Shown: positions 17,175 through 60,000 of the stretch, piece after piece | Position numbering within the stretch: position 1 is the stretch's first letter | Layout: every line of letters begins with the position of its first letter | Assembly: GCA_030581615.1 (NCBI GenBank) | Contig: JAKTTT010000075.1 | Location: forward strand, 1 to 64,000 | Origin: Alloascoidea africana | Taxonomy: Eukaryota; Ascomycota; Alloascoideomycetes; Alloascoideales; Alloascoideaceae | DNA length: 64,000 bases | Reading direction: 5' to 3' | Made by a program: the position numbers and the translations under genes | The notes under the pieces: model-generated | Database searches by the model: none | Told to the model about the DNA's origin: nothing | Seen by the model: only the letters and a program-made list of their open reading frames with translations

Positions 17175-18808
17175 CGGTTTAGTTTAGAATAAGAGATGTC
17201 AGTTCGTTGAAAGTAGCAGGAGTCAATATTTTTGTGAGAGAGTCGGCACAGTTAACATGGGTATTTAATCATTTTGTTTTTGACCAGATCTCGTACAAAG
17301 TGAAAGCGGATAGCAATATGTTTGCTTTTTTGGTTAACAGAATTGTGACTTGCTAATGTTAGGGAAGACATATTATCTCCGCAGATATCGATATAAGTTG
17401 AGGGCAAGTTCAATTCTTGAAGCAAATTAAAGAAGAATAGAGCATTCTTTGAGCATTCCGAGATTCCATAATATTCTGATTCCGCTGTGGAAAGTGCCAT
17501 AGACTTCTGCTTCCTGGAGCTCCAGGAAGTCACACTTCCATTGATAAAAATAAGAAACCCGTATTGCGATTTCCTGCCGTCTACATCAGAAGCATAGTCG
17601 GCATCAGTCATTCCCATTACCTGATATTCGCTGTGTTGAGGGTAGTCCTGGATGATGACGTTCTTGAATTTATCAAGATATCAAAAATCTTTGTACTGAA
17701 GGTTGGCAGATCCATTTTTGCGGAATAGAATACCTATTTCTCTGGTCTGAATAAGGTATTGTGGGACCCAATAGCCACATGTTAGCTGGTTCTGCGTGGG
17801 ATGTACTAGAAATCGAGACAAAAGAGAAGCACAGAAGCTCACGTCGAATATTCCAATTAGTGATTGGTAAAGCCTCTTGTTCTTTTCATCCAGCTCAGGA
17901 CTCTTTTGATATGGGTCAAATTCAGCTGGAATGGCTGACCCCAATGGTGTTTGCTTGACTATGATTCCTTTGTCAGCCTGAACTTTGCACAGAAAATCCT
18001 TCAAAGACAGTATTACTCCTCCTGATTTTCTGTCCACAGTAATAACCAGAAAATTTTCAGGGTAACCCAGGTCTTTTAGCTTGAATTTTGTACCCAGATT
18101 TTCCTTGATGGCTTCAATTGTTTTCTGCTTTTCTCCAGCCACCATCAAGTCGTCCACATAAACTGCCACCATTACATAATGTCTCTATTTGACTTTGTTG
18201 AAAGTCCAAATCTTTCAACGCGCGAGACAGGGTTTTGAACCAGAAATGTGGGGCCAGTTCAAGGCCGTAGACTGCCTTCTTTACCCGCCATACCTTGTTC
18301 CGAGCCACACCAGATCCTTATGGAAGCTTCATGAAGACAACATGGTCAATGTCACCGTGTAGGAAGGCGTTTGATATATCGAACTGGTTTAACGTCCATC
18401 CTTTTTCTTGTGCAATTGTGATGGTGAATCTCAGTGCGTCGTAAGTACAAACTGGAGAATACACCTCACTAAAGTCTCTTCCATGTAACTGATGAAAACC
18501 TTTAGCTACAATTCGGCACTTGAATCTCTCATGGAGTCCTTCATACTTGATGGTATTGACCCATTTAGAAGGGATAACATTTGGGCCAGCTAACAAGTAT
18601 GAAGGACTCCATGAGAGATTCAAGTGCCGAATTGTAGCTAAAGGTTTTCATCAGTTACATGGAAGAGACTTTAGTGAGGTGTATTCTCCAGTTTGTACTT
18701 ACGACGCACTGAGATTCACCATCACAATTGCACAAGAAAAAGGATGGACGTTAAACCAGTTTGATATATCAAACGCATTCCTACACGGTGACATTGACCA
18801 TGTTGTCT
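17175..18808 (-). mobile_element. Ty1/copia-family fossil (reverse transcriptase and RNase H remnants)
   Basis: Minus-strand peptides carry copia-type signatures: RT text (FKCRIVAKGFHQLHGRDF, FDISNAFLHGD, MVAVYVDDLMVAG) followed downstream by an RNase H region (TDADYASDVDGRKSQYGF, ALSTAESEYYGISE). Gag, protease and integrase are not seen. The coding region is broken in several places, so this is a dead copy. Part of the RT region is present twice as an inverted duplication (listed separately). The nearby inverted LTR pair at 19092-19552 may belong to the same family. Confidence 0.85.
18335..18808. repeat. Inverted duplication of copia RT segment
   Basis: Arms 18335-18549 and 18594-18808 (215 bp each) are reverse complements with a 44-bp spacer. 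Sequence near the spacer is identical and the few differences noticed lie toward the outer ends. Both arms encode the same RT segment on opposite strands. Confidence 0.9.
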
Positions 18809-32816: not shown

Positions 32817-35789
32817 TCCCCCCCTGTGCTAACGCATAGTGAAATGAAGAGTCCTTTAAAAACCAAGTTTCCATAAGAAAAGAAAGAAAAAAAAATATAT
32901 ATATAGAAATAAATAAATAAATTGAGAATTGAAAAAGAATAGAAAATAAAAAATAGAAAGTAAAAGTAGAAAGTATAGAAAGTAAAAGTAAAAAGTGAAA
33001 AATAAAATAAAGATAAAAAAGAAGTAAAAAAAATAAGAAATACAACAAAAAAAAATAGTACTAGAATTTAACAAAAATTGAATCAAAAGATCATTTTGCA
33101 AATTCTAAATTGTGCGATTTTCCATATCTTTGAACCATATCGGAAGCGGATTTTAGCAGTTCGGTTTTTGTGAACCACTGTTTTGTTCCATCTTTGAACT
33201 GCACTTGCAATCGATATCCACTTTTCATCTTTTTGTGGTGGAGGATCTTTTCGATTTCCATTTCCTCAGTGCCATCCTTATACTTTTTGAATACTTGTGG
33301 AGGACCCTTTGGTGGTAGTGCTCCGTCGTAGTTTTCAGGTAAAGGATTTCGGAGTTTGAGCTGAGATATGTGAAAGATGTTCGGACGCTTTGAGGAAGGT
33401 GGCATTTCCAACTTATAATTGACAGGAGAAAGTTTTTCCGTGATGGTATAAGGTCCGGTAAATTTACCTCTTAACGAGCGAGTTAGTCCTCTATTGTAAA
33501 CATCTCCAGATGTCTTTAATAAGTCTGACCTGACAAAAACTTCGTTTCCGACGTTAAATTGTGTATTTTTTCCATGATCCTTCTTTCGAGTTGCGCTTAA
33601 TGCAGCCTTTGCTGTTATGTCGCTAGTCTCTAGGTCTGACATTATATTGTGTACCTCTCTAAGTGAGACTTTGTCATATGCTGTATCAGGAAAAAGGAAT
33701 TGGTCGGGACCTGTTGGATTATAACCTAAGTCGATCTCGAACGGTGATTTTCCCTTGAGTGCTGTTGAGGGTGCTGAATTCAAGAAGAATTCTGCGTATG
33801 GCAGTAAGGATACCCATTCCTGGTCTTTAGGATTGATATATACTCGCAAGTATTCCTGTAATGATCTAATCTGTCTCTCTACCCTTCCATTAGATTGGTG
33901 ATGATCAGTAACTGATGTGCGTTGTTCGATCTGTAACGCTTCGAACAGTTCCTTGGTGAATCGATTAACGAATGGTTTTCCCAAGTCGGATCGGAGTGTT
34001 TTCGGTAGACCGTGCAATGGTAATAGTTTGGTTAAAACTATGTTGGTAATATCAAGAGCATCAAATTTTGAATCGATCGGGAATAAGTGTGTCCTATGTG
34101 AAAAATCATCCATAACCACTAATATTGAATCATAGTTAGTATTCTGTACTTTGACCAAAGGAAATCCAGAAACAATGTCGATGGCCCAAGTTTTCCATCT
34201 TCCTTGACTTTCTTCCATCTTCTGGGGATTGTCGAGGTTTGTTTGTCTTTGTTTCGTTCGAGCACATTGGTCGCATTGTTCAATGTAGGTTTTAACAATT
34301 TTGAATAAACCAGGAAAATAGTATAGTTTTCTCAGCCATGATGTGAGACGGTTTTGGCCTGAATGTCCGCCAAAAGCTGAGTTGTGCCAGTGTTCAAGGA
34401 GCGATTGTTGGCAGTTTTTTGGAACACACAATTTTGCCTTTCTGTACAATAGTTTGTTTCGAATCTTGTATCCTGGGTAATCGGCAAGTCTTGAAATGAT
34501 TTTCGCAAAAAATGGATCTTGTTTGTATCCTTTCTTGAATTTGTCGATTATTTCCGGGTTGGTGACGAAAGAGGTTATTCTACAGAAAGGCAAAATTGTG
34601 TGTTCCAAAAACCTGCCAACAATTGCTCCTTGAACACTGGCACAACTCAGCTTTTGGCGGACATTCAGGCCAAAACCGTCTCACATCATGGCTGAGAAAA
34701 CTATACTATTTTCCTGGTTTATTCTAAACTGAGGTAGTATGTGAACTTATCTAGGCCGTAAGTGATCGCAAACAATTCCTTTTCGAGAATCGGCCAATTC
34801 TTTTGGAATCCGTTGAGTGTTGTCGCTCGGAATCCAATTGGCATCCACTCACCTTTCGATGTCTTTTGTAGCAATGCAGCGCCAACGCTGTTGTTTGAAG
34901 CATCACAACATAGCTTAATTGGGAGATGTGGATTGAATGTTGTTAAGGCTACACAATTCTGGACTGCCTTCTTCAATTGTTCCCATGCTTTGACATGTTC
35001 GTCGGTAAAAACATATTTGACGTTCTTCTTGAGTAACATGTAAAGCGGTTCGGCGATTTCTGCGTAAGCTGGGATATGAGCGGAAATGTACGTTGTTAAG
35101 CCAAGAAATCTCTGCAATTCTTTCTTGTTGTTAGGCTGTGGTGTGTTTTGTACTATGTCAACTGATTTATCGCTTGGATCGACTATTACAGTGTTATTGG
35201 AAACACTAAGTTGATGTCCTAGCCATTGGATTCTCGATTGGAAGAATTCACACTTATCTTTGTTGACATGTAACTTTGCCTCTTTTAACGTTTGTAAAAC
35301 ATCCTTCAAGTGTTTTTTGTGTTCGCTCATATCTTTACTGAAAATTAGTACATCATCAAGTTCAATCCTTATATAATCTGCGTGCTAGCGGAGAATCTTA
35401 GCGATTGCTCGCGAAAAGATTTCGGGGGCATTCTTGAGTCCAAAGGGAAGCACTCTAAATTTGTAAAATCCACTTGGCGTTTTAAACGTAGTAAATCTTT
35501 GGGATTGATCTGACAGTCTTATGTGGTGGTACGCATTTGTAAGATCTAACTTAGAAAATATATTCCCTGTAACTCCCGCAAATAGATGCTCCCAGCTTTC
35601 GAGCGTCGTTGGGATAGTTGAAGTAATCTGATTTAGTTGTCGATAATCAATGACTACTCTTTTCTTCTTCCCAGTAATGACGAACGGGACACTGTAAGCC
35701 TCTGTGCAAGGAACTTGCTGAATAAAACCTTTAGCCAGTAAGCGGTTAACTTCTTCGTTTAGAACTTGTTGATCCGGGCACGACCTCCA

Positions 35790-40636: not shown

Positions 40637-43600
40637 TTAAATGTGAAATTGGCGATAAAACATGTCCCATTCACTTTCATCTCCATCAAACAGGAAACTC
40701 TCATACGTAATGTACGGATATCCCATTTGATGTTCTGGTCCAGATACCGCTGCACCACCACCACCACCACCACCTGCACCCATTCCCGTGGCCATTGACA
40801 ATGTTTCCTCGGGAACTTGTTGGTAATATGCTGGACGTATATGTGGTACTTGGGTCGGAGACATCATATCGATTGATGCACCACTCCGATCAGATTGGTT
40901 CGAACCCACTGTTGATGGAGGACCGAGTGGTGGACCAGAAGCAGAATTCCTGTCTTGATGAGGTTCATAAAATTGATTCGGTGGTAATGATTGAGGAGGA
41001 TGGATAGAAAGTGATTGAACCTGGTGTTGTATCGGGCCTGTAATTGAAGTAGAACGGCTGTTTACCGAAATTTCACTACCCTGTTGTTGTGTTTGCTGTT
41101 GATCTGAAGGAATAGAGGATCGATTCCTCACATGCTGCATCATCTGCGGGTGATATGGAGGCTCCAAAGGTGGGGGATATTGGGGTGGGTGAATAAAAGC
41201 TCGTTCTGCATTGCCATGTTGCTGTTGAATGTGTAAATTACCACTATGAGGTAATTCTTGTTGTTGTTGTTGTTTTGTGGAGTTGTTTGTCTGATCTCTT
41301 GTGTGGTTTTGTGATTTTCGTCTTTTCTTGAGAGGGGTCATGTGGGAATTGATTGAATATTCAAACTCTGAAGATCTGTAGGAGGAGGATTCACCGGAAC
41401 TGGACCTTCTCGATGGTCTTGAATGAGAATCCACCGAAGATGATTCAAACTCTTGACTAGAACCATAAGAGGAAGAACTCAGAGGTGGGTTCATTTTTCT
41501 GGGAGACAAAGACAAAGAAGAAGCACCAGTTACTTGTTGATGACTGGACAAGACAGGTTGAGGAGGTCTCAGTGGAGCCTGTTGAAACATCTGTGGATGC
41601 TGTTGTTCATGAATTGATACCTGTGTGAAATCAGAAGTAGAGGCCTGAGTAGAATTAGAAGAGGAAGTATTTGTCATTGGGTGAGAAGGGAACATGGTCG
41701 AGGTGTTGTTACCAGGTCCAGTTTTACCAGAAGTGCAAGAAGCAGATCCATTAAATTTTTGATTTGAACCTGTGTTAGGAGCACTGTAAAGATAAGAAAA
41801 CTGGGATTTGTAATCTGTATAGTTTGCCTCAAAGAAACCAATGTTTTTCTTAATGATATAAAAATCATCATAAATGTCATGATCATCTTCAATTTTCCAA
41901 CTGTTCACTTTTAAATTCATTTTTTTCAAAGACCCATTTGGAGTCCAATTATTCTCATAAAGCTTGATCAAGATTTCATCTCGAACTTTATACCTTTGAA
42001 CCATTAGAGACTTCATCGTCACGGAAATACGATGTATCACTTCCAATTCGTTTGTCAATAGTCTTTCAATGATGGACATTATCGGACATTGCTTTTTAAG
42101 ATTTGCCAATGCAATGGTGACTATCCCCAATAGCTTGAAACAAATCGAGTTTGTATATTTTATGGTATTTGAATAAATCACAGAACTATTTTGACGTTCA
42201 TCCTCATCATAATCCTGATCAATTTCATATTCAGGTGCAAGTTTTTCAGAATCATGGAGAATAGATTCCAAATATCGGGTTTTAATTCCAAATTTTCGTT
42301 CACAGTAATGACAGGATCGGTACATGTCCATGGTTAACCGTATCAATATGATATTGACAACTGCAGAAATGACATTCACCATGTGGAATGGGAACAAATC
42401 GTACCGAAAATTCGAACCTCCACCGGGTTCGCTGCCACTTCCTGGAGAAGTTGGTTGTGTTGTACTGTTTTTCTTGTCTGAATATGTATATCTTCTTTTC
42501 GAAGTGGAGGCATCGGATTCATTCCCGGATAACGACGAATCCTCCGAACTTTTCTTGTTGAAAATTCTCAACAGTTCAATTATGATTTCCGTGGATTTCC
42601 AGCATATATCAAAAGCATAATCAAATGACGCTTTTTCAATGTTTTCATCATCACTTATACTGTTGTTGGATACAGATTTGGCGTTGGAATTCGTAGACCC
42701 TCTTCTCGTACTACTATCGCTTTCGTATGGATCGACAAATGCACCTCCTATTGTTGAGGATGATTCCCGTGGAACAAACTGGAATTTGTTTGCAAGTATG
42801 CTTCTAATGCCTTGTAAAAGAATAGGTCGGTACAAAATGATGATAATTGCATGATACGTCATGTGTAAAATCAACACCACCGGTTCAATATTGTTGATTG
42901 GACCGCCGTTGCCATTGTTTGTGAGATTTGTTGGACTGGTTGGTCCATTTGTGCTAGAAGGTCCATCACCGATATTTATCCATTGGTTCCAATGTAGATT
43001 CGAAGGTAAATCGCATAACCATTTTTCCAACTCAATATGAATATTGCCAATAGAATTACAAATTGCGTGGAAACTGATATTTGAGGCGTTATTGTTATTG
43101 TTATTGTTGTTGTGATTTGTGTCCCCTCTTTTTTGAGGGTGTCGCATGTTTGTTCCAAAAACTTCCGTTAAAACTCTATTCAAAATTTTGGCCAATTCCA
43201 CCTGATATATCCAAGAATTGACCAAAGCCATTCTATTTTCACCTTTACTGAGTTTTTTAAACAAAACGGCTTCTTTCGTACTGAGTAGGTCATAAACGCT
43301 ACTGCGGATTTCCCCCGGGTATGGCAATCTTACTGTTTTTCTAACGTCCGAATCAATTGGATCGAGAAATGGCGGGCGACCATAACAAAACGACATGAAC
43401 TTGTCGATTAAAAAACACCCCCAGTACACTCGTCGTCGTAATTCTCTTTCTATTTTCGATTTCACACTGGAATCCCAATTATCTGGATCCAAATGGAGTC
43501 CCATTTCATGGACCAGGCGAAATGCCAATCCTGTAAAACACCATGCTTTTGAGGTTTCCCCAATCATGAATTCACGAAGGGATAAAAACAAAATAGATTG

Positions 43601-45320
43601 TAATATGGGTAGAGAAGGATCCACCAAGCCGGGTGTATTAATAAAAATGCTTCGTTCGGCGTATCGATAAAATCTACCGGCCAGTTTTTTAATCTCTTGG
43701 TCATTGGGGAAAAACAGAGCAGCATATGAACACAGTGAGCAGAGTAGTCCATGTGTATAGTAAGGTCCATTGCCAAGTTCAAAATCGCGTAAAAAATATT
43801 CACGATATATGAACATTGTGTTTGGATATTGGCATGTAAATAAAAACGAAATGAGTTTCCGACAGATTGTTGAGATTTTCGAATCTCTCAGGAATTCCTC
43901 GATAGGCATATCTGGAACAGTCAGGGAAGTTGAGGTTGATGGGTTAATACGGCCAGGTACAGGTACAGCAGCAGCAGTAGCAGCAGCGGCAGCGGTAGCA
44001 GGCTGGTGCTGATCGCTGTACTGTTGAGAATGTTGGGGATGCTTCCCAGTATTGTCTGCAATGTGAGATGGATCATGTATCATGTTCTGGGGAGACGAAG
44101 AACCTGGGCCCGCTATTGGCGGACGATGTTGTTGTTGATGTAACTGTGAATTATGCGTTGGTCTAGGATGGACCAAACCTGGAGTAGTGCTTGCAGTAGC
44201 AGCAGCAGCAGCAGCAGATGATGAGGATGATGATGATGGCGGCGGGAACTCGTTCAAGTATTGTAATATACTTTCAGAGTCATTTCTGGATGCCATTAGG
44301 GTGAGAGGGATTGAAGAAACCACAGCTTTTGCATTTAGTGGGGTTGGGGATAACTGGACAAAACTCGTTGTACCAAAGAACTGAACAGATTTGAGGGAGT
44401 TTGAGTTGATTCGAAATAGTCGAAAGGGATGGATATAGCTGTCTGGTTTTAGAGATTTTGTAGGGATGTTTGCATTTGGAAGAGCCGATTCGGGCTTTAG
44501 TTGCAGTGTTCTTTGAGAAAAAGGGGGTCTTGTATTGGGTTCACCAGATTTCATGCTATAATCAATATCTGATGGATGGGGATGAGCAGGTTGTTGGGGA
44601 GGAGGGTATTGAAAGGCTTCATCAAATTGGAGACAAGGTGGGGAAGTGTTTGAGGATGATTCCAATTTTATTTTCTTAAAGGGGTTGTTTGGTTCACCGG
44701 ATGATGAAGATGAAGAAGAGGATTCCTTTACGCGGTCGACATTTGCAAGGTTTGCCATTGTAAGGGAGTCTCTTGTATGCTGACCATTTGAAATTTTCTC
44801 AATATACGTTTGCAGTAGGTATATCTGTCGTTCAAGTACATCGACATAGGACTTTGTTACTGGTCGTTTCTTGTATCCGTCGTGATGGTAAACACAATCG
44901 ATACTTTTCTTGCGGCAGTTTATGCATGGTTGTTTCTTGTCGCATCGAATCTATTTGTAAAAGAAGTGGGTTAGCCAGGAGAGTCCAAGTCCAAGTCCAA
45001 GATTCGGAAGGTATTGAGTGGGTCAATCAATGGCAGTGTATAATTGTTTGGAGATGGAGATAGGTACCTTTCGACGACGACAATACTCGCATCTTGAAGA
45101 TTTGACACACACAGGATAGTTAGTTAAAAAGAATTATAATGAATGAAAAAGGATCTACTAAGCATCATCAACATGGACATTCCTGTCGGAGGCAACGATT
45201 GCAAGATTCAAGAACCAGGGATCCCGGCCAAAATTGATTAAGAGATACAGGTACGTACGAAACACGGGCAGGTTCCTTTATCCTTTTGCCAGGCCGCGAA
45301 CCGGATTCAAAGTGGCTCAT
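40637..45320 (-). CDS. Zn2Cys6 fungal transcription factor, three exons
   Basis: 1466-aa zinc-cluster regulator. Exons 45320-45259, 45092-45068 and 44950-40637. The middle exon is only 25 nt and encodes the first half of the cluster; joined, residues 22-48 read CEYCRRRK-IRCDKKQPC-INCRKKSIDC, a perfect CX2CX6CX5CX2CX6C. A basic linker (YKKRPVTKSYVDVLERQIYL) leads into a short coiled coil, then Ser/Gln/His-rich regions. A Fungal_trans domain lies at ~370-620 (FLRDFELGNGPYYTHGLLCS, RRVYWGCFLIDKFMSFCYGR, PPFLDP). The long C-terminal part is Ser/Gln/Pro-rich, like an activation domain. The exact orthologue is not recognised. It sits 336 bp downstream of the DUF1445 gene on the same strand and 6 kb from OXP1, so it may regulate them. 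Confidence 0.92.
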
Positions 45321-45656
45321 GGCGGCGGCAAGGCGACGACTGGAGCACGGGGGCGTCAGGAGCAGGCGCAAGGGCAGACGCTGGAGCTGGAGCGGGAGCA
45401 GGAGCTGGGGGCGGGCTGTCTGGGGACGAGAGGCGACGGGGGGCGATGGCGATGGCGATGGCGATGGAGATGGAGATGTTGCAGCCTGGGTGTGATGGTG
45501 CGAGGATGGAGGGGATTCTGGATCTTTATATGATCTCGCTCTTACTGTGGGCGGTTTGATTGGATTTTCGCGACGGCGATCGCCAGCCTTGCGTACAGTT
45601 AAGGTTGCATGTTATACAGAGACTCACCGCTACGGCGCATAACATCCACAACATCG
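45321..45656. promoter_or_regulatory. Transcription factor upstream region
   Basis: 336 bp between the DUF1445 stop and the transcription factor start. GC-rich near the gene, with a GATGGC repeat at about 45443-45466. It must contain the factor's promoter. Confidence 0.4.
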
Positions 45657-46811
45657 TCAGAGCCGGGTGACCTCCGCATCCGGCATGTCCAGCACCACCA
45701 TGTGGCCCGGAGCGTGGCCCATCGCGATGCCCACGATGCCACTCGCGGACTCCCTTCCCGAGGACTGGGACTCACTGCCCGTGGACTGGGCCAGCTGGGT
45801 CACCGCCAGCTGGGGCGTCACGCCGCACGCCCAGAACACCGGCACCTGCCCCGGCGGGATGCCCGCAAAGTCGCCAAACTCCGGCGCCAGCAGGTCCGCG
45901 ATCCCAAGCCGCTCCACCGCGTCGAACCCCCAGTCCACGGGCTCGCCGTGCGTGGCCCGGAACTCCCTCGTGATGGCTCGCACCTGCTCCACCTGCTCCG
46001 GGTAGAAGCTTCTCATGCTCACGACGTAGGTGCAGTGTGTGAACACGCCCGCCGGGTTCAGATACTTGCGAGTCTTGTACATGGCGACCCCCATGCCCTG
46101 GAGCTGGTGCTGGATCGGGATGCCTGCCTGGAGAATGGCTTTTTCAAACGAGTAAGAGCATCCGATCAGAAACCCAACATGGTCCGCACTGAACTCCTCC
46201 ATAATGTCTGCAACTCCGGCCTTCACCAGCTTGCCGTTCTCGTAGACGTTGTACTTTGGGAAATCCCGTCTTATATCAAACAAGGGCTCGTCATGTGCAT
46301 CTTCTGTTTCCATACTTGTTTCTGTATCTGCTGGTGCTGCTGCTGGTGCTGCTTGTGCTGCTGCCTGTTCCACATGATTATCGTGATGAGTACCGTAAAA
46401 AGACGTTTCTTTTCCAATATGGTCTTCGCTATCGTCGTCATTTTCATTTTCATTTTCATTTTCATGTCCGTGTTCAGTTGTTGCCAGAGTTGTCCTTTTG
46501 GTAGCATTCCCATCACAATTCTGTGTTTCATCTGGCGTTTTGTCACATTTCGTCTCTTTCATCCCCCCACAGTATATAATTCTTTCGTTATCTAGCTGGG
46601 TGGGCATGCCAGGCGCAACGGTCTTGGCCAACAATGGACAAGCAACGGGGTTGCGTCGGCACAGGTCTTCAAAATCCCGGGCGAGTTTGGAAGGTAGTAC
46701 GATGAGGTTCGCCTGTGCAAATCCGGGACACACTCCACTTGTGTCCGAGGTGTATTTCCCCTGTCTACACAACAGTCTAAACTGTCGAGGAGTGTAGGAC
46801 TGTATGGGCAT
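45657..46811 (-). CDS. DUF1445 protein, D-glutamate cyclase family
   Basis: 384-aa protein of the YcsI/DUF1445 family, whose animal member DGLUCY turns D-glutamate into 5-oxo-D-proline. Family landmarks in order: PRQFRLLCRQGKYTSDTSG, VCPGFAQANLIVLPSKLA, RNPVACPLL, FDIRRDFPKYNVYENGKLV, FLIGCSYSFEKAILQAGIP, VVSMRSF, GQVPVFWACGVTPQ and HAPGHM. Compared with bacterial members it has a ~95-residue low-complexity insertion (residues ~80-175, with His/Glu/Asn repeats and Ala runs) between the N-terminal part and FDIRRDF, and a second small Ser-rich insertion before HAPGHM. Start at ATG 46811; codons upstream are not ATG. No intron. It lies between a Zn2Cys6 factor and OXP1, whose substrate it may supply. 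Confidence 0.93.
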   Translation of the reverse strand: MPIQSYTPRQFRLLCRQGKYTSDTSGVCPGFAQANLIVLPSKLARDFEDLCRRNPVACPLLAKTVAPGMPTQLDNERIIYCGGMKETKCDKTPDETQNCDGNATKRTTLATTEHGHENENENENDDDSEDHIGKETSFYGTHHDNHVEQAAAQAAPAAAPADTETSMETEDAHDEPLFDIRRDFPKYNVYENGKLVKAGVADIMEEFSADHVGFLIGCSYSFEKAILQAGIPIQHQLQGMGVAMYKTRKYLNPAGVFTHCTYVVSMRSFYPEQVEQVRAITREFRATHGEPVDWGFDAVERLGIADLLAPEFGDFAGIPPGQVPVFWACGVTPQLAVTQLAQSTGSESQSSGRESASGIVGIAMGHAPGHMVVLDMPDAEVTRL

Positions 46812-47217
46812 TATCACTGTGGTTATTAAATTGGTGGTGCTGGGGGGGTTTTTCCTGTTTCACAACGACGGGATGGTATGGTATGGTATGTACCCGGTGG
46901 ATCGAAGAAACTTTATGTCTGTAAGAACCTAGAGGTAGAAAACCCTACAAAAATGGTCTAGCAAAGATGAGAAAACAGAGAGGAATCTTAAATTTCTGGC
47001 TCCTAATCCTGGCAACTGCTTCGCACTGGGGGGAGGGGGATATCTGGAAAGATTATGGAGCTGGAAGAAATTGAGGTAGGTGTAAGGATCTTTTCTGGAA
47101 GGCACGCCGGGTAGTCAAAGCGAAGTAGAGATTAGGCAGATAGAGAGATAAAATAGAATGATTTAGATGACCAGCGCTTAGTAGCAAATCCGAAGATGGA
47201 GGATGAGCAACACTGAA

Positions 47218-47225
47218 TATTTATA
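47218..47225 (-). promoter_or_regulatory. Candidate TATA box for the DUF1445 gene
   Basis: TATAAATA on the minus strand, about 400 bp upstream of the DUF1445 ATG. This is far for a TATA box unless the 5' leader is long or spliced. Confidence 0.3.
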
Positions 47226-50200
47226 CCAGTTCCACTCTACGCTTCTCTATCTAGCCCGTTCTCCTTTCGCAAGTGCTGGATCTCCTATCGTGCTTTGACC
47301 CTGGATTTGCAAGTCTGGAGACCCCTACGCCGATCTGATACTGATGCTGATACTGCTTCCGCGAGGATCCAAAAGGCACCCACCGCCAGGGAGCAAAAGC
47401 ACAAGCGAGAGAAGAAAACAGGTCTCAGAGATACACCGGGCGGGCTTCGGTTGCAGCTCTGCTTCCTTGCGGTGGCCCATGCCCGGGGGTTCCTCTTGGG
47501 GCCTCCCTCCTCTCGTTCTACCTCCACAAATGCCCTGATCGGCCGCAAACACAAACATATTCAGTCAGGCTGGCTCCAGCTAGCAGCGATGACAAGCGGC
47601 CGGTGATTGTTGGAACTGCCAGAGGAGAAAGGGCAAAGGAGCTTGCACATCCGCACACTTCAGTTCTTTCAGTTCCCTGTGTGGTGTGTCATCGCTGAAT
47701 GTTTTAAAAAGCTGCCGCTGGGACCGCTGGGACCGCTGGGAGTTTCTCCCCTTTTTGACCGGTCGCAAGCCTTCAGTACAGGAGAAACATACCTCTTTTG
47801 GCATTTTCTACAAGGTCCGTCATTTCTTTTGCAAAAAAACTTTGTTTTTTTTTTTGCTTTTTTATCTTGTTCTCTGTCTATATCACCGTTTTTTTTTTTG
47901 TTTTGTTTATATTTCGATTGGCTATTATTGGTCAAAATGACACCTGCCATTCTGCGTATGAACCAAAAGGAAAAGAGTTTGTTATAATGGCATGGAGATG
48001 AGATCATTCAGATTGGCCGTACAGTACCATGTCTACTTTTACATGTGCGATTAAATTATTGGGTAACATGATGAATCTTGAACATTGAAACCTGTAATCA
48101 GAAACAAAAACACAAATAATAATAAATAATAATTGTTGAAAATTGTAGATTGAAAATCAGTATCTTACAACTAGCTCGTTCTATTATTGCGGGGAGAAGA
48201 AAGGAAAAGAAAAGGTGCATTCTTCTTTACCTTGAGGTTACATTGATTATTAACACAATTGTGTGTGTGTGTGATCTCCATATGAATTTCCATATCCATC
48301 CTGTATGTAAAAGAATAAGAATAAGAATGAACGAGAATTGAGGAAATTGGGGAATCTTCATTCCACGTACATACATAACATCCAGTGGCTCATTTTTTTT
48401 TTTTTTTTTTGGAGGGAGAGAGAGAAGGATAGAGTAATAACGGAATTGGTAAAACGACAATTCTTATTTGTTGTTGTTGTTTTATCAAAGTACGGAGGAC
48501 ATAATATCGATAATATCAAGATTCCGTGTTGTGCGCCACAATTACAGTAAAAGAAAACAAAATGTTCTTCACCCTTTTTAACAAGCACATTGGCAAAAGA
48601 TAAAATGTGTTCTTCAGTACAAATTTTATTTTTATTTTTGTCGTCAATAGATGATGTGTCATGTCTTGGGTTTGCAGGGCAAATTCCATAGTGACAACAA
48701 GTGGTGGGAAACCAAAAGAAAGAAAAGCAAAAGTAAGCAAGGCAAGTATGTCTCATAAAAAAAAAAATGCCTTCTTTCTGGCGACTTTTATTCCTCTTTT
48801 CATCGTTATTGGGGTTGGTTTGAAATCGGAGATGAGTGTAATGGTACTACAAAGTGGCAAGACATTTGATTGATTGATTGATTGACTGATTTTTCTAAAG
48901 TTTACAAAGTTGACAGTGAGTATTGGCGTGCGCAGCAGACAGTACTCAAAATTTAAACATAAAACTTAGATACATCAGACTACAACAATAATAGTAATCA
49001 TACTTTAAGAAATGGGTTCAAACTTACAAGCCTGTCAAAAAGGAAAAAAAGGAAAGGGTAAAGTTTATGAAACATTACGTTTTGGCACAGCCTCAACCGA
49101 GGTTGACAGGTTTCCACCTTTTTATTTCTCTTCTTTTCTCGTTTTGTGTTTGCATGTTTCCATTTAATCACATAATTAGAACCAGATGTGCTTGTTTTTT
49201 TAAAGTATGCTTTGCATTTGTGGGTTAGTGGTGGTGATCTACAATGCCCTTTGCTGTTCAATCTATCAGGACATGTTTTCCCAAATCCAATCTAAGCAAT
49301 GACAAGCAAGGTCTTTCGACTTTCTTTGAGTCCATTTGGTCTGATGATTGGTATACAGATAAATACCAATATCGCCATCAATCAAAAAATCAGGAATTGT
49401 GAAAAACAAAGGTGCTGTAGCTGCTGTAGGTCATGTAATGCCCCACAAACACAGTCTTGAATGGAGTAAAGCCCCGTTGTTTTGTTTTGGTCATTCAGTG
49501 CCAGGTGCGGTGTGTAGTAGATTCAAAAGGATCAAATACCTAACATGTTAAAAGCTTAAAAAAAAAAAAAGGTTTACCCACACTCAAAACATGATTGTGA
49601 ATGATGGGAGGAAATCTATGACGAATTTCTCTATCTTTAAAACTGAACTGAATTGGATTGGGATCAAAAGCCAAAATTTTTAAAAAAGGATGAATTCTGA
49701 ACTTTGATTAGCTAACTATGTGAATTTTTTGGTGATTGTGTCATATTATGCCCTACCCCAACCTAACCTTGTCTGAAGCATCATCGATTGGGAGCTTTTG
49801 ATGATAACAGCACCAGAAGAAGCTATAAAAATATACAGTGTGTATGTGCCAGCACGACCAAAAACGGTATATATGTATCGAGAGAGATTTTATCGGCACA
49901 CCGACTTGAGATTGCAAGATTGCAAGATTGCAAGATTTGGAGATTTGGAGATTTCGATTTCAAGATCGCGATCAAGCAAAAAGAGAGTTTCCCGGTTTAG
50001 CGCTGTGGCTAGATACACCCAAAAACACAAAAAGCAGCATGGCACGGAACAGACCGCTAAGCAAGGGTCCCTGCTTCCCCGGGGTATCTCCATTCTCTTC
50101 TATTTTAACGGTAGGCGGACCCGGACGCCCGCGCCGAGCTTATCGCGACTTCTTTTTCCCGATAACGCCTTCTCCGGCGAATGACGGCCAGCACATTTGT

Positions 50201-51363
50201 CATCCGAGACAGAAACGAGAGAGAGATGGAGATGGTTAGAGTTGCACACGTCAATGGGCTTTTGGTATTAGAGTTGCAATGATTGACATTACATGAAACG
50301 CTCCAGCACGGCATTTCTTTCTCTCTCTTTTTTTTTCCTCTCCCGCGAGTTGCCCGGCCTCTGCCAGATTCGAGCACCCAAAGGAGCAGGAGCAGGAGCC
50401 GGGTGCACGGGTGTAGCGCTGCGGCTGCGATTGGCCAATCCGCGCGGGTCTGGCGAAACCGCGTTATCGCGGTGCATTCCCACATCGCTGCGGGTGCTGC
50501 ACCGCGCGGGTGCTGCACCGCGAGCCGGCAGCCAATCGCAGCCGCTGGGTTGTAACCGAGCGGCGGGGGGTGCGCTGCGTATGCCTTGCGTTTGCGTTTG
50601 CGTTTGCGTTCGCTCTGGAGACTGGAGACTGGAGACTGGGGCCCAGGGCCCAGGGCTCGAGGCTCCAGGCTCGAGACACATGTCTAGCGCAGAGCCGTTG
50701 CAAGAACAGCTTTGGCGTGCCGGTCCCTGTGCGGCCAGCGGTGCGGCTAGCTGTGCCGTCGTGGTTGTAGATGGACGCGCTGGGCAGTGTTTTGTGGAAG
50801 GGGAGCTGGCCCAGACACGATGATACATCCCTCTGGGGATCTCTCTGGACACCCTCCTGGAGATGCAAACGGCGGAGGTGTGAAGGTCTGGCGGACCCAC
50901 TGCGAAGCACAGCTAGGCGATTCGAGCTTGGCCTGCTGCCCACGGACTCGGGCCTCCGCGCTCGCCGCGGGTGCGGAAGTGGAACCTCCGCGTATGCACC
51001 GGAGGGCCCGATCTCCAGGCAGCACTCAGGACCGGGTCTGTGGCCGGGTCCACGGTACCGGGTGCGCGCCCCGACGAACCGTCCAACGTTCCCGTTCCTC
51101 TCTCCGCCATTCCACGACCACCACCACACCAGCGAGAACGAGAACGAGAACTGGAGCGATAGACACCTCCAACAGAAGAAAAAAGAATTAGCCGTCTGGT
51201 GCGAGGAGTCTCGCGGTCTGTGCCGGATCAGACGACTCGAGATGGCACAGGGCTCGCGGGACGGGGACCGGGGCAAACACCCAGACTCCCACCCGCGGCT
51301 GCCCAATCCGTTTTCTCTTGCATGGAAGCGCCTATTCTCGCTCCGACAGATGCTTACTCTGAG

Positions 51364-51371
51364 TATAAATA
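51364..51371 (+). promoter_or_regulatory. TATA box for OXP1
   Basis: TATAAATA 126 bp upstream of the OXP1 ATG, at the edge of the GC-rich island and just before a CT-rich leader. Confidence 0.5.
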
Positions 51372-51496
51372 CTTTCCCGTCCCTCCTCTCAAGTTGCCTT
51401 GCTCCCTTCATCATCAAACACTGGGCCTCTATTTTCTTTCATATACTACACTTATACTATACTATACTATACTATACATCTTATATCTTAACACAC

Positions 51497-54400
51497 ATGG
51501 GAATTAAAATCGCTATTGATGTATGCATCCATCTCTTCTCTCTCTCTCTCTCTTTCTTTCTTCTCTTAACCAACTAACACACTTGACTTTCTTTCTCAAG
51601 CGAGGGGGAACCTTCACAGACTGTGTAGGAAACCCCGGCACGGGCAAGATGGAAGATGACGTTATCGTCAAGCTTTTATCTGTCGACCCCCAGAATTACC
51701 CAGATGCTCCTCTAGAAGGCATAAGAAGGCTGATGGAAATCTTTTCTGGTAAATCCATCCCTAGAAATCAACCTCTAGATACTTCACAAATCGAATACAT
51801 TCGAATGGGTACAACCGTCGCTACAAATGCTCTTTTGGAGAGGAAAGGTGAAAGAAGCGCTCTAATCACCACTTCCGGCTTCAAAGATTGTCTTGTAATC
51901 GGTACGTTCCATCATAGCATCGTTCTTTCTCATGTAGTCATCACCATATCTAATTTCCAGTTTAGGAAACCAATCGAGACCCAAAATTTTCGACTTGGCG
52001 ATAAGAAGACCCGATATGCTTTATGAAACCGTCGTTGAAATCGACGAAAGAGTCACTCTGGAAGATTACGCAGAGGACCCTCTACAGAAAAAATCTACTC
52101 CAAACGGGAAGGAAACAATTACCGGCTTATCTGGAGAAACAGTACGTATCCTGAGGAAACCGGATCCAGCAGCAATTGAAGCGAGTCTGAGACAACTTTA
52201 CAACACGGGAATTAGGTCCATTGGCGTCTGTCTTATGCATTCCTACACCTTCCCGGCACATGAGCTTATCGTTGGAGATATTGCAACCAAAATTGGTTTC
52301 ACCCACATTTCTCTATCCTCCCAATTGTCCCCCATGATAAAGTTTGTGCCTAGAGGTAACTCGGCAATAACCGATTCTTACCTAACCCCGGAAATTAAAA
52401 AATACCTGTCCGGTTTTAAATCGGGCCTAGCTCCAGGCTTTGAAGAAACCACAAAAGTGGAATTTATGCAATCTGATGGTGGTCTGGTGGATGCCTCGAA
52501 TTTCACAGGACTTCGAGCAATCTTGTCCGGTCCAGCTGGTGGTGTGGTTGGATACGCACAAACTTGTTATGATCCAAAAAACAAAATACCCTTGATTGGT
52601 TTCGATATGGGAGGTACCTCAACAGACGTTAGTAGATACGGCTTGGGGAAATATGACCACGTTTTCGAGACAACAACAGCGGGTGTCACGATACAATCCC
52701 CTCAACTCGATATAAATACCGTGGCTGCAGGAGGTGGCTCCTGTCTTTTCTACAAAAATGGGTTATTCGTCGTGGGTCCAGAGTCTGCAAGTTCCCATCC
52801 AGGTCCAGCTTGTTACAGGAAAGGAGGCCCTCTAACGATCACCGATGCAAATCTATTTTTGGGCCGCTTGCTACCCGAATATTTCCCTAAAATCTTTGGT
52901 GAAGGGGAAAATGAGGGTTTGGATGAAAAAATCACTGCACAAAAGTTTATTGAGTTGACAGCGCAAATTAATCATGAAACCGGTCAATCAATGACACCTG
53001 ATGAGGTGGCTTACGGCTTTGTCAAGGTTGCAAATGAATCCATGACAAGACCCATTAGAGCTTTGACGGAAGCTAAAGGTTACATTTCCTCAAAACACCG
53101 TTTGGTGACCTTTGGAGGGGCAGGTGGTCAACATGCAGTGGCCATTGCTGAGTCTCTCGATATCAGCACCGTATTAATCCATCGATATTCATCCGTTTTA
53201 TCGGCCTATGGAATGGCCCTAGCAGATGTCGTTGTCGAGGTTCAAGAACCATCATCCCTAACACTCAGTTCTGAAAATGAAAAAACCTTATCTGCCAAAT
53301 TGGCATCATTGTGTTCAAAAGCATCGGAACAATTGGTTGAGCACGGGTTTGACACGAAATATATCGAACATGAGGAATACCTAAATTTAAGATACAAGGG
53401 TACTGAATCCTCTCTAATGATTGTTAGGAAAAATTTGGGAGAATGGGATTTTGAAAAATCGTTTTTGGAATTACACCAACGAGAATATGGCTTCACTTTG
53501 CAATCCCGGGATATTATCGTGGATGACGTCAGAGTAAGAGGAATAGGCAAAAGTGCACATACTTTGGAACAAACGGTTGATGAACAGATTGAATCTTTGT
53601 CCACAAGGTCCCTACTTGTTCCTGTAAACATTGATTCCAAGGCAAAATTCTTCAAATCATCCTATTTTAACGGTGAACGTGTTCCTACTCCAGTTTTCAG
53701 ATTAGAAGAGCTTGAAATTGGTGCAACTGTTAGTGGGCCTGCAATTCTTGCAGATGGAACCCAAACGATTGTCGTTTCTCCAAATGCATCTGCTGTGGTT
53801 TTGAAAACGCACGTTGTTGTCAAAGTTCTTGGTGCAGAAAGTATCAAATCTGCAACCAATAATGATGATGATGTTGTCGTCGATCCTATCCTATTGTCAA
53901 TCTTTGGACATCGATTCATGGACATTGCAGAACAAATGGGGTTATCTTTACAACGAACTTCTGTTTCAACAAATGTTAAGGAACGATTGGATTTCTCTTG
54001 TGCTCTTTTCGATACAAATGGTAATCTCGTTGCAAATGCTCCTCATTTACCCGTCCATCTAGGTTCCATGTCAACCTGCGTTAGACGAAATGCAAAGTTA
54101 TGGGAGGGGAAATTAAAACCTGGTGATTCCGTTGTATCCAACCATCCCAATGCAGGTGGAACCCATTTACCTGATATTACTGTTGTTACTCCTGCATGGG
54201 AAGATGGGAAAATCATCTTTTATGTTGCATCTAGAGCCCATCATGCTGATATCGGAGGAATTTTACCTGGATCCATGCCACCAACCTCTCGTGAAATTTA
54301 TGAAGAAGGTGCTCAAATATATTCCGAGTTGTTGGTCTCGGAGGGGAGATTTAACGAGGAAAGAATCACACAGTTGTTGTTGGTTGAACCTGCCAAATAC

Positions 54401-55606
54401 CCAGGATGTTCAGGAACACGATGTTTAGCCGATAACATTAACGATTTGAAAGCACAGGTCGCTGCAAATCAAAAGGGTATCAACTTGATCCGAAATCTTG
54501 TACAAGATTTTGGTCTTGCCACAATCTCAAAATACATGGTTGCAATCCAGGATAATGCCGCTGATACAGTCAAGAGACTTTTATCCAAAGTTGTGAAAGA
54601 ATTTGATTCGACTTTGGAAGCTGTTGATTATATGGATGATGGTTCAAAGATCCAATTAGCGATATTCATCGATCCAGAGACAAACGAGGCAGTTTTCGAT
54701 TTTACAGGAACTTCTCCTCAAGTTTATGGTAATATAAATGCACCTGAAGCAGTGACCTATTCTGCAATCATTTATTGTTTGAGATGTCTTGTTGATGAAG
54801 ATATTCCTTTGAATCAGGGATGTCTTCGACCTATTGTTGTGAAAATCCCACCAAACTCGTTGTTAAGTCCAAGTAAAGATCGGGCTGTTGTTGGAGGCAA
54901 TGTCATGACAAGTCAACGTGTTACTGATGTTGTTCTCAAGGCATTTAACGCAATGGCTGGATCCCAAGGTTGTTGCAACAATTTGACCTTTGGTTATGGT
55001 GGTAATGATGAAAATGGTAACTATACGCAAGGATTTGGATACTATGAAACAATTGCAGGTGGTCATGGTGCAGGACCCAATTGGAAAGGTGTTAGTGGTG
55101 TTCACACAAACATGACAAATACTCGTATCACGGATGCCGAGATTTTCGAAAGACGGTATCCTGTTCTTCTCAAACAGTTTTCTCTAAGACCCGGATCTGG
55201 AGGTCAAGGATTAAACAATGGAGGTGATGGTGTGATTCGAGATATCGAGTTTAGAATGCCTGTTTTCGTGTCAATTTTATCGGAAAGAAGAGTTATCCCA
55301 CCTTATGGTTTGGAAGGTGGTGAACCTGGAGAATTGGGATTAAACATTTGGCAAAAGGGAATCCGCGATTCAATGGGTAAGATTGTAGGATACGATACGA
55401 TAAACATGGGCGGTAAAAACACAGTTCATGTACTTCCTGGAGATCGAGTAATTATCAATACACCAGGTGGAGGAGCATTTGGCTCCCTCAACAGCCCCCC
55501 GAATGGTGGTGGCGTGAATGGATACATCAAGACAAGCAAGGTCAATGAAAAGTTGAGTATGGGAGGAAGTGTATCCCATAGAAAACATATTCAAGAAACG
55601 AGTTGA
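51497..55606 (+). CDS. OXP1: 5-oxoprolinase (ATP-hydrolysing), three exons
   Basis: Cytosolic enzyme opening 5-oxo-L-proline to L-glutamate with ATP, the salvage end of the gamma-glutamyl cycle. Exons 51497-51520 (only MGIKIAID), 51601-51901 and 51966-55606. Introns of 80 and 64 nt (GTATGC...TCAAG, GTACGT...TTTAG) keep frame and restore [20 protein letters not shown] and [14 protein letters not shown]. 1321 aa (S. cerevisiae 1286). HydA-type ATPase domain: [34 protein letters not shown] and [17 protein letters not shown]. HydB domain begins near residue 740 ([38 protein letters not shown]). It ends with a Gly-rich block (NTPGGGAFG). Two CTG codons (52058, 52406) sit at expected leucines. It diverges from the D-glutamate-cyclase-family gene 4.7 kb away. 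Confidence 0.97.
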
Positions 55607-57017: not shown

Positions 57018-60000
57018 TTAGCATTTGATTGAGGTTCCTATCGAAGCCGTTTCGTAAACAGAATTCCTTCCTTCCACCTCGATAGCTGCTGTACTGTTCT
57101 TTGATGATTGGATTTCATGCTCATCTAACCGTGAAACACTGGTACTGCTGCTTAGTTTGGTCTTAATGAATGGCTGTTGCTGTATCCTTGAAGTGAGAGT
57201 GGTAGGGCTATTAATCGTTGTCGTAATAACCCCGTTATTTATACTTGTGGAGCCTGAATGACTAGAACTTGTTCCACACGATGATGTGAGAGGTTTGTTT
57301 TCAATCAAGACTGTTGTTGAACTCCCCGAGGTTTTGGTGAATTGTGACAAATCCTTGATACTGCTGGTGTTGGAAAGTGCTGGGTGTAAACCAGAGCCAG
57401 AAGAATTTTCGGAATGTGTTGGAAGGATTGTTTTATTCTCAGGTGACATGTCAATTATTGGCTGTAAAATTCGAAAAATGGCGTCTTTTTGTTCTTGGTC
57501 CAGTTCAACCGTTTCAGGAGATAACAAAGATTGTGAAACTGATGGCTTGAGATTTTTATTAGGATTATGATTAGACTTGATATCATTTGGTTTTGCAGCT
57601 GCTGGCTTGGAAGGCCGAGGAGTAAGAACTTCAAAGTTGAAAAAATCGCTATTGCTCTTATGTTCAGCAATTTGCTGCTGCTGCTGCTGCTGCTGCTGTT
57701 GGTTGGAGGTAGATGTTGGGTTCACACAGATTGTATCGTCTCTTTCGTACTCGCTATCGGATGTTAAATCGATTAAATTATCGTCATGCAGTCGGGATTG
57801 GACAGGCTTGAGAGCAGGCGAATCTGCCAACATTCTAATGTTTGTCATGGTACTCGACTTCACCATTAAAGTCTTCTTTTCCTTTTCCTTTCGCTCTTGA
57901 TTTTGAACTTCTTCCTCTCGTAACTTGCGATCCTTTGCCTCTTTTTCCCGTCTCAGCAACTCTCGTCTAACCTCTTCTCTCCTCAAGGCCTCTTTCTTTG
58001 CAAGTTCGCCCGCTTCTTTCTCCCTTTGATCTTTCTCAAATTGGGATCTAATTTTAACCCTGTCAACAAGATACCTGGTTTCAAACATGCCTGGTTTACT
58101 ACCGTCGATAACAATGTCGGATGTGTACACAACGTTGTTTCTAAAGTAGTTAAATATGGGCACTCTATAATTTGAACTGCGCATCTTCTTTGTGAACGGA
58201 TTGCCATCAATCCAGATAGCTTTCAAAGAGTTTACATTTTTGGCAATGTTCTCAATGGATTCATAAGAGTCAAGAGAATTGTTGCGAAGCTCCAGCTTTT
58301 CGAGCTTTGGACATGAAGAAAGTAATCCAACGTCGGTTAGATTGTTGTTCTTCAAATTTAATGACAACAGTGTGCTCAATGGCTTCATGCTACGAAGATT
58401 GTCCAAGTTTCTGATTGAGTTGTAACTCAAATTTAGAGCCTTGAGTTTTGTAAGAACAGAAATCGCCTGAGGGATAGTGGTCAGCTTGTTGTGTGAAAGA
58501 TCTAGTGATGTAAGGGTTTCGGCGACCTGAACAAACGCAATTGGCTTTATTTCAGAAATGAGATTATCGGATAAGGAGAAATGAATCAAGAACCGCCATT
58601 TATTCTCGGGTAAAGGCGAGCGGGGCAAATTCTTCTGACAGTATGACGATGATTCGGAGTCAGATGAATGGGAATGGGTGCTTGCCGTGCGGCTGAAAGA
58701 AGCAGAGGTGATGGTAGGGTTTAGAGCATTTGGAGAAACTGCTCGGCGGTGGGAGGAGGAAGAGGAGCAAGTATTAAGAGAGGGTAGGGTTATATCAGAA
58801 GAAGTCTTGTTTGGACGGTGAGAAGTCCCCGTTTGATGAGAAGAATGTTGGAAAGGAGTTTCATTTATTAGAGAATCGTTTGACAGAGGAAGCGATGCAG
58901 CAAGCGCCGAAATGTGTTGAAATTCATTGACGCTGTTGCCGCGTGTTCTTGGAGATTGGACGTTTCGTTTATGAGAATTATTAGAATGTTCGTTTCCAAT
59001 CGAGTAATGGCTTTGGTGATACTGGAAATGGTGATATGAACTAGAATACGACGTATGGTATGAAGAGGTATAGGTTGTCGGTGTGTATGAGAAAGGAGAT
59101 GCAGCGTAAGGGGTAGAAGGGGACGCGGTGGACGCGGCAGTAGGTGAGTATGAAGAGTAGCGGTACATATCGTCGAGAACCGCTGTGTAGAGCAATTCAT
59201 ACGGATCTTTAATGTTTGCCTTTTTCACAGTCAATATCCGTAATTGTTCAGAAAGAGTATCCCAGCCAACTACTTGTTTGATTTCGAATTCGGAAATCTC
59301 CAAGACGCTTAGATTTTTGAAGCAGATGATAGGAACGGCGGTGTCGAAGGGATATTCCTCATAACCCTCGATCAGTTTTGCGGACCAATCGGGCGAGAGC
59401 CTCAGGCACGGGAGTTTTGTGAACGCGGAATAGATATATTTGATATCCGAATTCATTTGAATTTCGCGTTGTTCTTCGTTTGTGCTTGCGCTGTTGAGGA
59501 TAGAGGCCAAATCAAAGATCGACGACATTGAGGACATTACACTTTTGATGGATCCCACTGATCTAATTGAGGCCGCATCGCTGTTTGCAGAATCTCTGTT
59601 TGCGTGGCTTTTGTGGTATGCATGGTTGCTTAGAAAAGAGACATAGTTGGAAGGGGTGTCGTTGGATTGTAGGTTGTCCAATCGCACGTTCATGGGGCCG
59701 ACATTGATGCCCATTTCCTCAAACTTTTGTAGTAAGTAGAAGAGGTGGTGGAGGGTCAGGGAGAGTCTGACCGGTTTGAAGGGTAATTTTGAGCTGGATG
59801 GACCGTTCTGTATCGATTTATTGTCATCTTTGAGGGTATTTTTCTTCTTGTAGGCCAGTAGGGCATTGGCCAGCTAAAAAGGGCAAAGGCGTTGTTGCCT
59901 GTTAGTCAACAAACAACACAACGTGAGGGGGGGGGTGGAAGGCAACGAGCTAGATCGCAGCGCAGAAACGACAGAAGGGATAGACAAGATCCATGACATA

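Follow-up and report, generated by a model that had tools for sequence, protein, structure and literature searches.

The window analysed here comprises bases 1-64000 of the 95.9-kb contig C75 of Alloascoidea africana (genome of 23.2 Mb in 138 contigs), and its gene content, with Pil1, OXP1, Fungal_trans and introns, is of the ascomycete type. Two of its genes, one encoding a DUF1445 protein and the other an OXP1-type 5-oxoprolinase, lie head to head at a distance of 4.7 kb. This divergent pair and its probable place in 5-oxoproline metabolism are the subject of the present analysis. The pair is made up as follows:

45657..46811, minus strand: gene of the DUF1445/PF07286 protein, a single open reading frame of 384 aa with a low-complexity acidic insert (profile match and alignments).
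46812..51496, no strand: 4.7-kb stretch that separates the divergent DUF1445 and OXP1 genes, with a GC-rich island at 50.0-51.4 kb.
51497..51520, plus strand: exon 1 of the OXP1-type 5-oxoprolinase gene (spliced translation).
51601..51901, plus strand: exon 2 of the same gene (profile match and spliced translation).
51966..55606, plus strand: exon 3 of the same gene, with both the HyuA and the HyuB half, joined in a single chain.

The DUF1445 protein matches PF07286 over the entire model (positions 1-143 of 143, E 1.8e-49, 167.7 bits versus a cut-off of 25). It scores below the curated cut-off of the NCBIfam putative hydro-lyase model NF003969 (256.2 versus 324 bits). The OXP1 gene has two N-terminal introns, and its spliced product of 1321 aa is free of stops and matches PF02538 (E 4e-206), PF01968 (E 3.9e-99) and PF05378 (E 2.1e-15). 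The enzyme is full-length, with the HyuA-N, HyuA, HyuA-C and HyuB regions all on a single polypeptide of ~1300 aa, and its exon-3 part stays under the cut-off of the related caprolactamase/acetophenone carboxylase models (best 227.5 versus 1000 bits). By domain make-up, it is classed as a eukaryotic-type ATP-dependent 5-oxoprolinase. HyuA and HyuB form a single long chain in OXP1 of S. cerevisiae as well; the window gene differs from it in its two introns and in its DUF1445 neighbor, and we know of no DUF1445 gene in S. cerevisiae. No further gene was recognized in the 4.7-kb gap, where 17 open reading frames of at least 60 aa occur; the nine of at least 112 aa have no Pfam match, and a hidden gene in this region was therefore rejected. 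The identities and coordinates that an earlier reading of this DNA (the original prediction) gave for these two genes and for a neighboring Zn2Cys6 factor gene hold in the Pfam matches and spliced translations.

Using an alignment-based scan of genome contigs, we found at least 550 relatives of DUF1445 and kept the best 80, a sample that leans to Rhizobiaceae and Pseudomonas. Their neighborhoods were queried with E. coli PxpA, PxpB and PxpC (taken from locus L122), the proteins reportedly described as PxpABC by Niehaus in 2017, and with the window OXP1. Among these best 80 of at least 550 loci, PxpB and PxpC each accompany DUF1445 in 76, PxpA in 74 and at least one of the three in 76, while an OXP1-type enzyme was found in none (0/80). 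The four unlinked loci (L091, L096, L116 and L121) have a PxpA-family gene elsewhere in their genomes. With the fungal sequence alone as query, on the other hand, none of the 24 pattern matches was a bacterial relative. The bacterial pairing of DUF1445 with a 5-oxoprolinase, which had been put forward from the example of B. subtilis, is thus right, and stronger than had been stated.

In less biased samples of two phyla, those of L107 (Actinomycetota) and L091 (Pseudomonadota), DUF1445 was present in 24 of 296 and in 64 of 398 genomes, respectively; for the latter, 30 loci were fetched of 67 matches, with L165 and L125 representing the same places as L091 and L107, respectively. In all of these loci, the 1.5 kb flanking the domain match at either end were read, and the linkage counts are lower bounds. 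A pxp gene lies beside DUF1445 in 10/24 Actinomycetota and 8/30 Pseudomonadota loci (18/54 together), and an OXP1-type gene in 2/24 and 2/30, respectively. Plasmid records with DUF1445 numbered 238, of which 60 were listed and 15 opened, three of these chosen via an OXP1-type match. Eight of the 15 have a pxp gene within 6-10 kb (L150, L151, L152, L185, L187, L188, L190 and L191), L185 having PxpA alone, and three have an OXP1-type enzyme (L147-L149). The likeness of the fungal pair to the bacterial pxp operons with ycsI/DUF1445, as they appear in part of PMC10448178 for B. subtilis, lies in DUF1445 adjoining 5-oxoprolinase genes. Several annotated bacterial loci add a transporter and a GntR, IclR or LysR regulator, whereas the fungal pair has none of these alongside.

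The bacterial loci with an OXP1-type enzyme come closer to the fungal arrangement. In L147 and L148 (Paraburkholderia), a LysR-type regulator, DUF1445, a major facilitator superfamily (MFS) transporter and a fused OXP1-type enzyme follow one another in this order (Pfam assignments of regulator and transporter from L147), and the set is also present in L149 (Caballeronia), where a different gene adjoins the regulator. The three enzymes are 41.6-42.9% identical to the window OXP1. The L147 transporter shares 53% identity with its counterpart in L187, which has DUF1445 and pxp genes as neighbors, and one transporter type therefore accompanies both kinds of 5-oxoprolinase. In L166 (genome G312 of the Pseudomonadota sample), DUF1445 and an OXP1-type frame of 1234 codons (41.9% identity over 1283 aa) stand head to head, with a DctP solute-binding protein beyond DUF1445, and a partial read of L174 displays a divergent start like that of L166. 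The L166 layout fits the neighborhood given for B. pertussis in part of PMC13274462, where a eukaryotic-type 5-oxoprolinase gene has two DctP genes in its vicinity, the product of one binding 5-oxoproline with an affinity of 0.3 uM. Finally, in L134 and L137 of the Actinomycetota sample, a HyuA 35% identical to OXP1 and of unsure identity as a 5-oxoprolinase adjoins DUF1445.

Loci L147-L149, L166 and L174 thus have both families in common with the fungal pair, and L166 and L174 also the head-to-head orientation. They differ from it in the MFS (L147-L149) or DctP (L166) genes alongside, and no close donor is seen among them on the tree; their DUF1445 proteins are 34-37% identical to a second fungal copy, on contig C39. 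The tree comprises 93 rows (91 bacterial and 2 fungal), labeled from flanks of unequal length. The seven OXP1-type rows fall in three places, and the label needs 3 changes versus a shuffled mean of 6.8. DUF1445 adjoins an OXP1-type enzyme in two bacterial clades, and probably in a third. The two fungal proteins form a long branch of their own (2.11) with no sister among the 91 bacterial rows, which led us to reject a recent transfer of DUF1445 from a bacterial donor to the fungus.

A search of the fungal genome returned one OXP1 gene and two DUF1445 genes, on C75 and C39. The C39 protein and the window protein share 74% identity over a stretch of 77 aa and 64% over one of 223 aa, and most of the acidic insert is absent from the C39 copy. 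The comparison with C39, which covered 150 of its 213 kb, revealed that its 60-109 kb region is collinear with C75: DUF1445, a leucine-rich repeat (LRR) gene, an exon at 59.9 kb and, as far as 89.5 kb of C75, another three pairs occur in a kept order, with one pair inverted. The anchor of this block in the window is the following gene:

57018..59714, minus strand: LRR-protein gene that anchors the collinear block duplicated on C39; outside the DUF1445-OXP1 unit.

The block pairs are ~53-83% identical, with many unmatched genes between them, and suggest an old whole-genome duplication or hybridization. Neither OXP1 nor the factor is present on C39, and a candidate OXP1 relic there was rejected, as its matches did not rise over chance level. 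Therefore, either DUF1445 persists unlinked in this block, or OXP1 was inserted on C75; loss of OXP1 from C39 after the duplication would be the simpler reading.

As for the function of DUF1445, PF07286 bears the Pfam name D-Glu_cyclase, and the original prediction had taken the window protein for a homolog of the D-glutamate cyclase. This label appears weak and doubtful, since the mouse protein that was tested also carries a second domain, DUF4392. In the relevant parts of PMC5339696, purified mouse 9030617O03Rik turns D-glutamate into 5-oxo-D-proline with no L-glutamate seen, its racemase homology is tied by the authors to DUF4392, and the D-isomer is described as accumulating in humans given D-glutamate. 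Vertebrate DGLUCY (C14orf159 / 9030617O03Rik) shares DUF1445 with the fungal protein, but it is mitochondrial and fused to DUF4392 (same source), whereas a Pfam scan of the window protein lists PF07286 only. DUF4392 is absent and DUF1445 present in fungi according to part of PMC5132392, where the fused domains are proposed to run sequential reactions. Our search of the fungal genome did not find DUF4392 either, but the control genomes also gave no match.

In the Pseudoalteromonas plasmid loci L185 and L195, the two domains reside in separate genes, in the order GH3 enzyme, DUF1445, PxpA, DUF4392 protein (PF14336, E 7.1e-64 and 9.7e-64) and class IV aminotransferase, the last being annotated as a D-amino acid aminotransferase in L195. 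From their gene content, these clusters look like a means of using wall-derived D-glutamate, and the separate DUF4392 gene suggests a D-glutamate route with the cyclase and DUF1445 as different steps. L195 also contains a dipeptidase and an MFS transporter. A separate DUF4392 gene beside DUF1445 is the exception: a search with the L185 protein showed the two side by side in just 2 of 149 loci (L185 and L181), and one of five further DUF4392 plasmid loci opened contains DUF1445 (L195; not L193, L194, L196 and L197). L192 (S. meliloti) has DUF1445 without pxp genes and a DUF4392 gene ~4 kb off, beside a threonine/serine dehydratase, and this dehydratase-DUF4392 pair recurs in L193 and L194. In L189, a divergent A. 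tumefaciens DUF1445 (29% identity) is located near a dihydropyrimidinase and an ABC transporter, where its use on another cyclic amide is possible.

An alignment of 82 rows, 80 of them bacterial relatives, retains C58 in 81, C218 in 80, C329 in 81 and H288 in all 82 rows, and the window protein keeps the conserved residues of the bacterial family (columns kept in at least 97% of rows). Cys, His, Arg and Asp residues that do not vary suggest a pocket for catalysis. One enzyme type that would fit the conserved residues is a cofactor-free two-cysteine racemase. Such racemases are found among the Asp/Glu and proline racemases. Two genes of the Asp/Glu-racemase family in the fungal genome were rejected as members of the unit, being located on other contigs (C17 and C77). 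Structures related to DUF1445 are available as PDB entries 2PIF and 3DB9. In the open-access literature, with subscription journals outside the scope of the search, we found no paper on a 5-oxoproline/pyroglutamate racemase or epimerase, and none joining the putative hydro-lyase to 5-oxoprolinase or OPLAH to DGLUCY.

Because many bacterial relatives of DUF1445 adjoin one of two unrelated kinds of 5-oxoprolinase, and because the fungal genes form a head-to-head pair, DUF1445 probably feeds OXP1, and we infer a functional link between the two in this fungus. On balance, and with some reserve, we favor the interpretation that they constitute a two-gene unit for 5-oxoproline salvage, in which DUF1445 supplies the substrate of OXP1. 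D-glutamate or D-glutamine of bacterial origin would cyclize to 5-oxo-D-proline, the DUF1445 protein would preferably turn this into the L-isomer, and OXP1 would hydrolyze 5-oxo-L-proline to L-glutamate with ATP. Both proteins would reside in the cytosol, given that the window DUF1445 does not reach beyond the bacterial proteins at its N terminus and that Oxp1 is cytosolic. The more specific proposal that DUF1445 is the missing D-to-L 5-oxoproline racemase, linking D-glutamate breakdown to L-specific 5-oxoprolinases in bacteria, fungi and vertebrates, we put forward tentatively; in vertebrates it would be fused to the DUF4392 cyclase, and the fungal pair would be the simplest form.

The racemase step would remove the stereochemical caveat of the original prediction, namely that the cyclase yields the D-isomer while Oxp1 is known for the L-isomer. 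The pair itself is a fungal version of an association already known from bacteria; the racemase reading of DUF1445 is new. Bacteria, fungi and vertebrates all have DUF1445, and the function behind its name could be traced to one two-domain mouse protein. Its position beside two unrelated bacterial 5-oxoprolinases and fungal OXP1 places it in 5-oxoproline metabolism, with a small, testable set of reactions. If DUF1445 is indeed a racemase, this would explain how D-glutamate from bacterial walls can be recovered as L-glutamate and would hint at what DUF1445 does in the vertebrate fusion protein.

On the other side of DUF1445, the window contains the factor gene:

40637..45320, minus strand: Zn2Cys6/Fungal_trans factor gene, exons 45320-45259, 45092-45068 and 44950-40637; a neighbor, probably outside the unit.

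Its spliced product of 1466 aa matches PF04082 Fungal_trans (E 5.1e-35), and the Zn2Cys6 motif, read by eye in the translation, is split over two short upstream exons and the start of the third. The start codon at 45320 matches the intergenic coordinates given previously. A PDB search with the 1373-aa main open reading frame gave no match. The original prediction had united all three genes in one pathway cluster with this factor as regulator. While the partnership of DUF1445 and 5-oxoprolinase is supported, with both enzyme types in bacteria, the Zn2Cys6 gene as pathway regulator is not, and we rejected the three-gene cluster because the paralogous blocks on C39 and C35 do not keep the factor linkage. 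The sole close paralog of the factor, on C35, is 54% identical over 630 aa (next matches at most 34% over shorter stretches) and adjoins a COX5-like gene and another that we take to encode an AIM6-like protein; genome searches placed neither DUF1445 nor OXP1 on C35. As the neighborhood of factor and DUF1445 is kept in neither duplicated copy, the position of the factor looks incidental, and the gene is probably a mere neighbor of the unit. Two attempts to follow the rearrangement by which the two came together led from the C39 neighbor to C34 (best other match) and from the C35 neighbor to C20 and C27, with no contig in common. Furthermore, the factor and DUF1445 genes lie in tandem and therefore have no divergent promoter in common.

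The upstream regions 45321-45656 and 46812-51496, for which shared CGG half-sites had been proposed, were compared by counting CGG(N0-12)CCG pairs against 200 shuffles. No pair occurs upstream of the factor (0.8 expected), and the 1 kb upstream of DUF1445 displays no significant excess (3 versus 1.6 expected, 44/200 shuffles). An excess was found in the GC-rich stretch upstream of OXP1 (22 versus 10.8 expected, 3/200 shuffles) and over the whole gap (26 versus 7.2 expected, 0/200 shuffles), the latter figure mixing GC-rich and AT-rich parts. We do not read this excess as a shared site set, because GC-rich islands recur along C75, where 32 of 382 windows reach a GC content of at least 0.55 versus 8 of 599 on C39; a site set at OXP1 alone is conceivable. 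Sharp islands (55-71% GC) lie at 45.3-46.2 and 50.0-51.4 kb of the window, with about eight more on C75 (contig 42%), and this recurrence led us to reject them as a mark of the DUF1445-OXP1 locus. The GC content at third codon positions of the window DUF1445 is 0.86-0.94 in its last 400 bases versus 0.38-0.50 in the C39 paralog.

Several observations weigh against the salvage unit. The fungal evidence for linkage of DUF1445 and OXP1 comes from one locus in the one genome examined, 4.7 kb separates the genes, and the C39 block retains DUF1445 and the LRR gene without OXP1. All of this, together with retrotransposon remnants elsewhere in the window, would also agree with two genes that act separately and became neighbors by chance when genes were rearranged or lost in a duplicated genome. 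However, as OXP1 is single-copy, the odds that it would come to lie next to either DUF1445 gene by coincidence are of the order of 4 in 5,000-8,000 genes (about 1 in 1,000-2,000, a rough figure based on a guessed gene number), and the pair of DUF1445 with an OXP1-type enzyme recurs in two bacterial clades, probably three, head to head in L166; we consider such a coincidence possible but on the unlikely side. The bacterial data are not uniform either. Neither 5-oxoprolinase was found in 12/24 Actinomycetota and 20/30 Pseudomonadota loci as read, nor within 6-10 kb in 4/15 plasmid loci (L153, L186, L189 and L192). The OXP1-type linkage is the rarer kind (0/80, 2/24 and 2/30), and the three label changes on the tree, with labels from unequal flanks, may equal one gain and two losses. 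As to the racemase step, the mouse DUF1445-DUF4392 protein gave 5-oxo-D-proline in the assay described in PMC5339696, which together with the build-up of the D-isomer in humans indicates that the vertebrate domain does not seem to racemize efficiently.

The same mouse activity, the Pfam name of PF07286 and the adjacency of OXP1 agree with a model in which DUF1445 is a D-glutamate cyclase that makes 5-oxoproline, OXP1 hydrolyzes the product and the Zn2Cys6 factor regulates both. Yet the activity was demonstrated solely for a two-domain protein whose racemase homology is linked by its authors to DUF4392, a domain not found in the genome (where controls gave no match) and reported absent from fungi in the part of PMC5132392 concerned. 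Moreover, the cyclase would make the D-isomer, and the duplicated copies do not keep the linkage of the factor. CGG pairs are absent upstream of the factor and not in significant excess upstream of DUF1445. We therefore regard this model as rather unlikely. That DUF1445 accompanies two unrelated 5-oxoprolinases could also mean that it is a partner or activity modifier of these enzymes and not a pathway enzyme. This appears improbable, as one protein is less likely to partner enzymes that are not related to each other, and as the invariant residues would point to catalysis. In addition, E. coli K-12 has pxpABC, and E. coli gave no DUF1445 match among the controls, so PxpABC is independent of DUF1445.

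Published observations hint weakly that DUF1445 genes of fungi respond to the nitrogen supply. In a gprK deletion of A. fumigatus, the 20 most strongly reduced genes include the DUF1445 gene along with transporters of peptides, nitrate and ammonium (PMC5008803). SPAC5H10.01 is given as the one strongly reduced vegetative transcript upon klf1 deletion in S. pombe (PMC3805531). This gene is the DUF1445 gene of S. pombe, where it may be located close to the 5-oxoprolinase genes SPAC11D3.14c/.15.

The retrotransposon remnants of the window comprise a broken Ty3/gypsy-type element at 33094-35330 (integrase core, SH3_Tf2-1 and RT-RNase H), whose integrase open reading frame has 57 genome-wide matches including itself, one of them, on C44, being 98% identical, and a reverse transcriptase remnant of the RVT_2 (Ty1/copia) type at 17684-18172.

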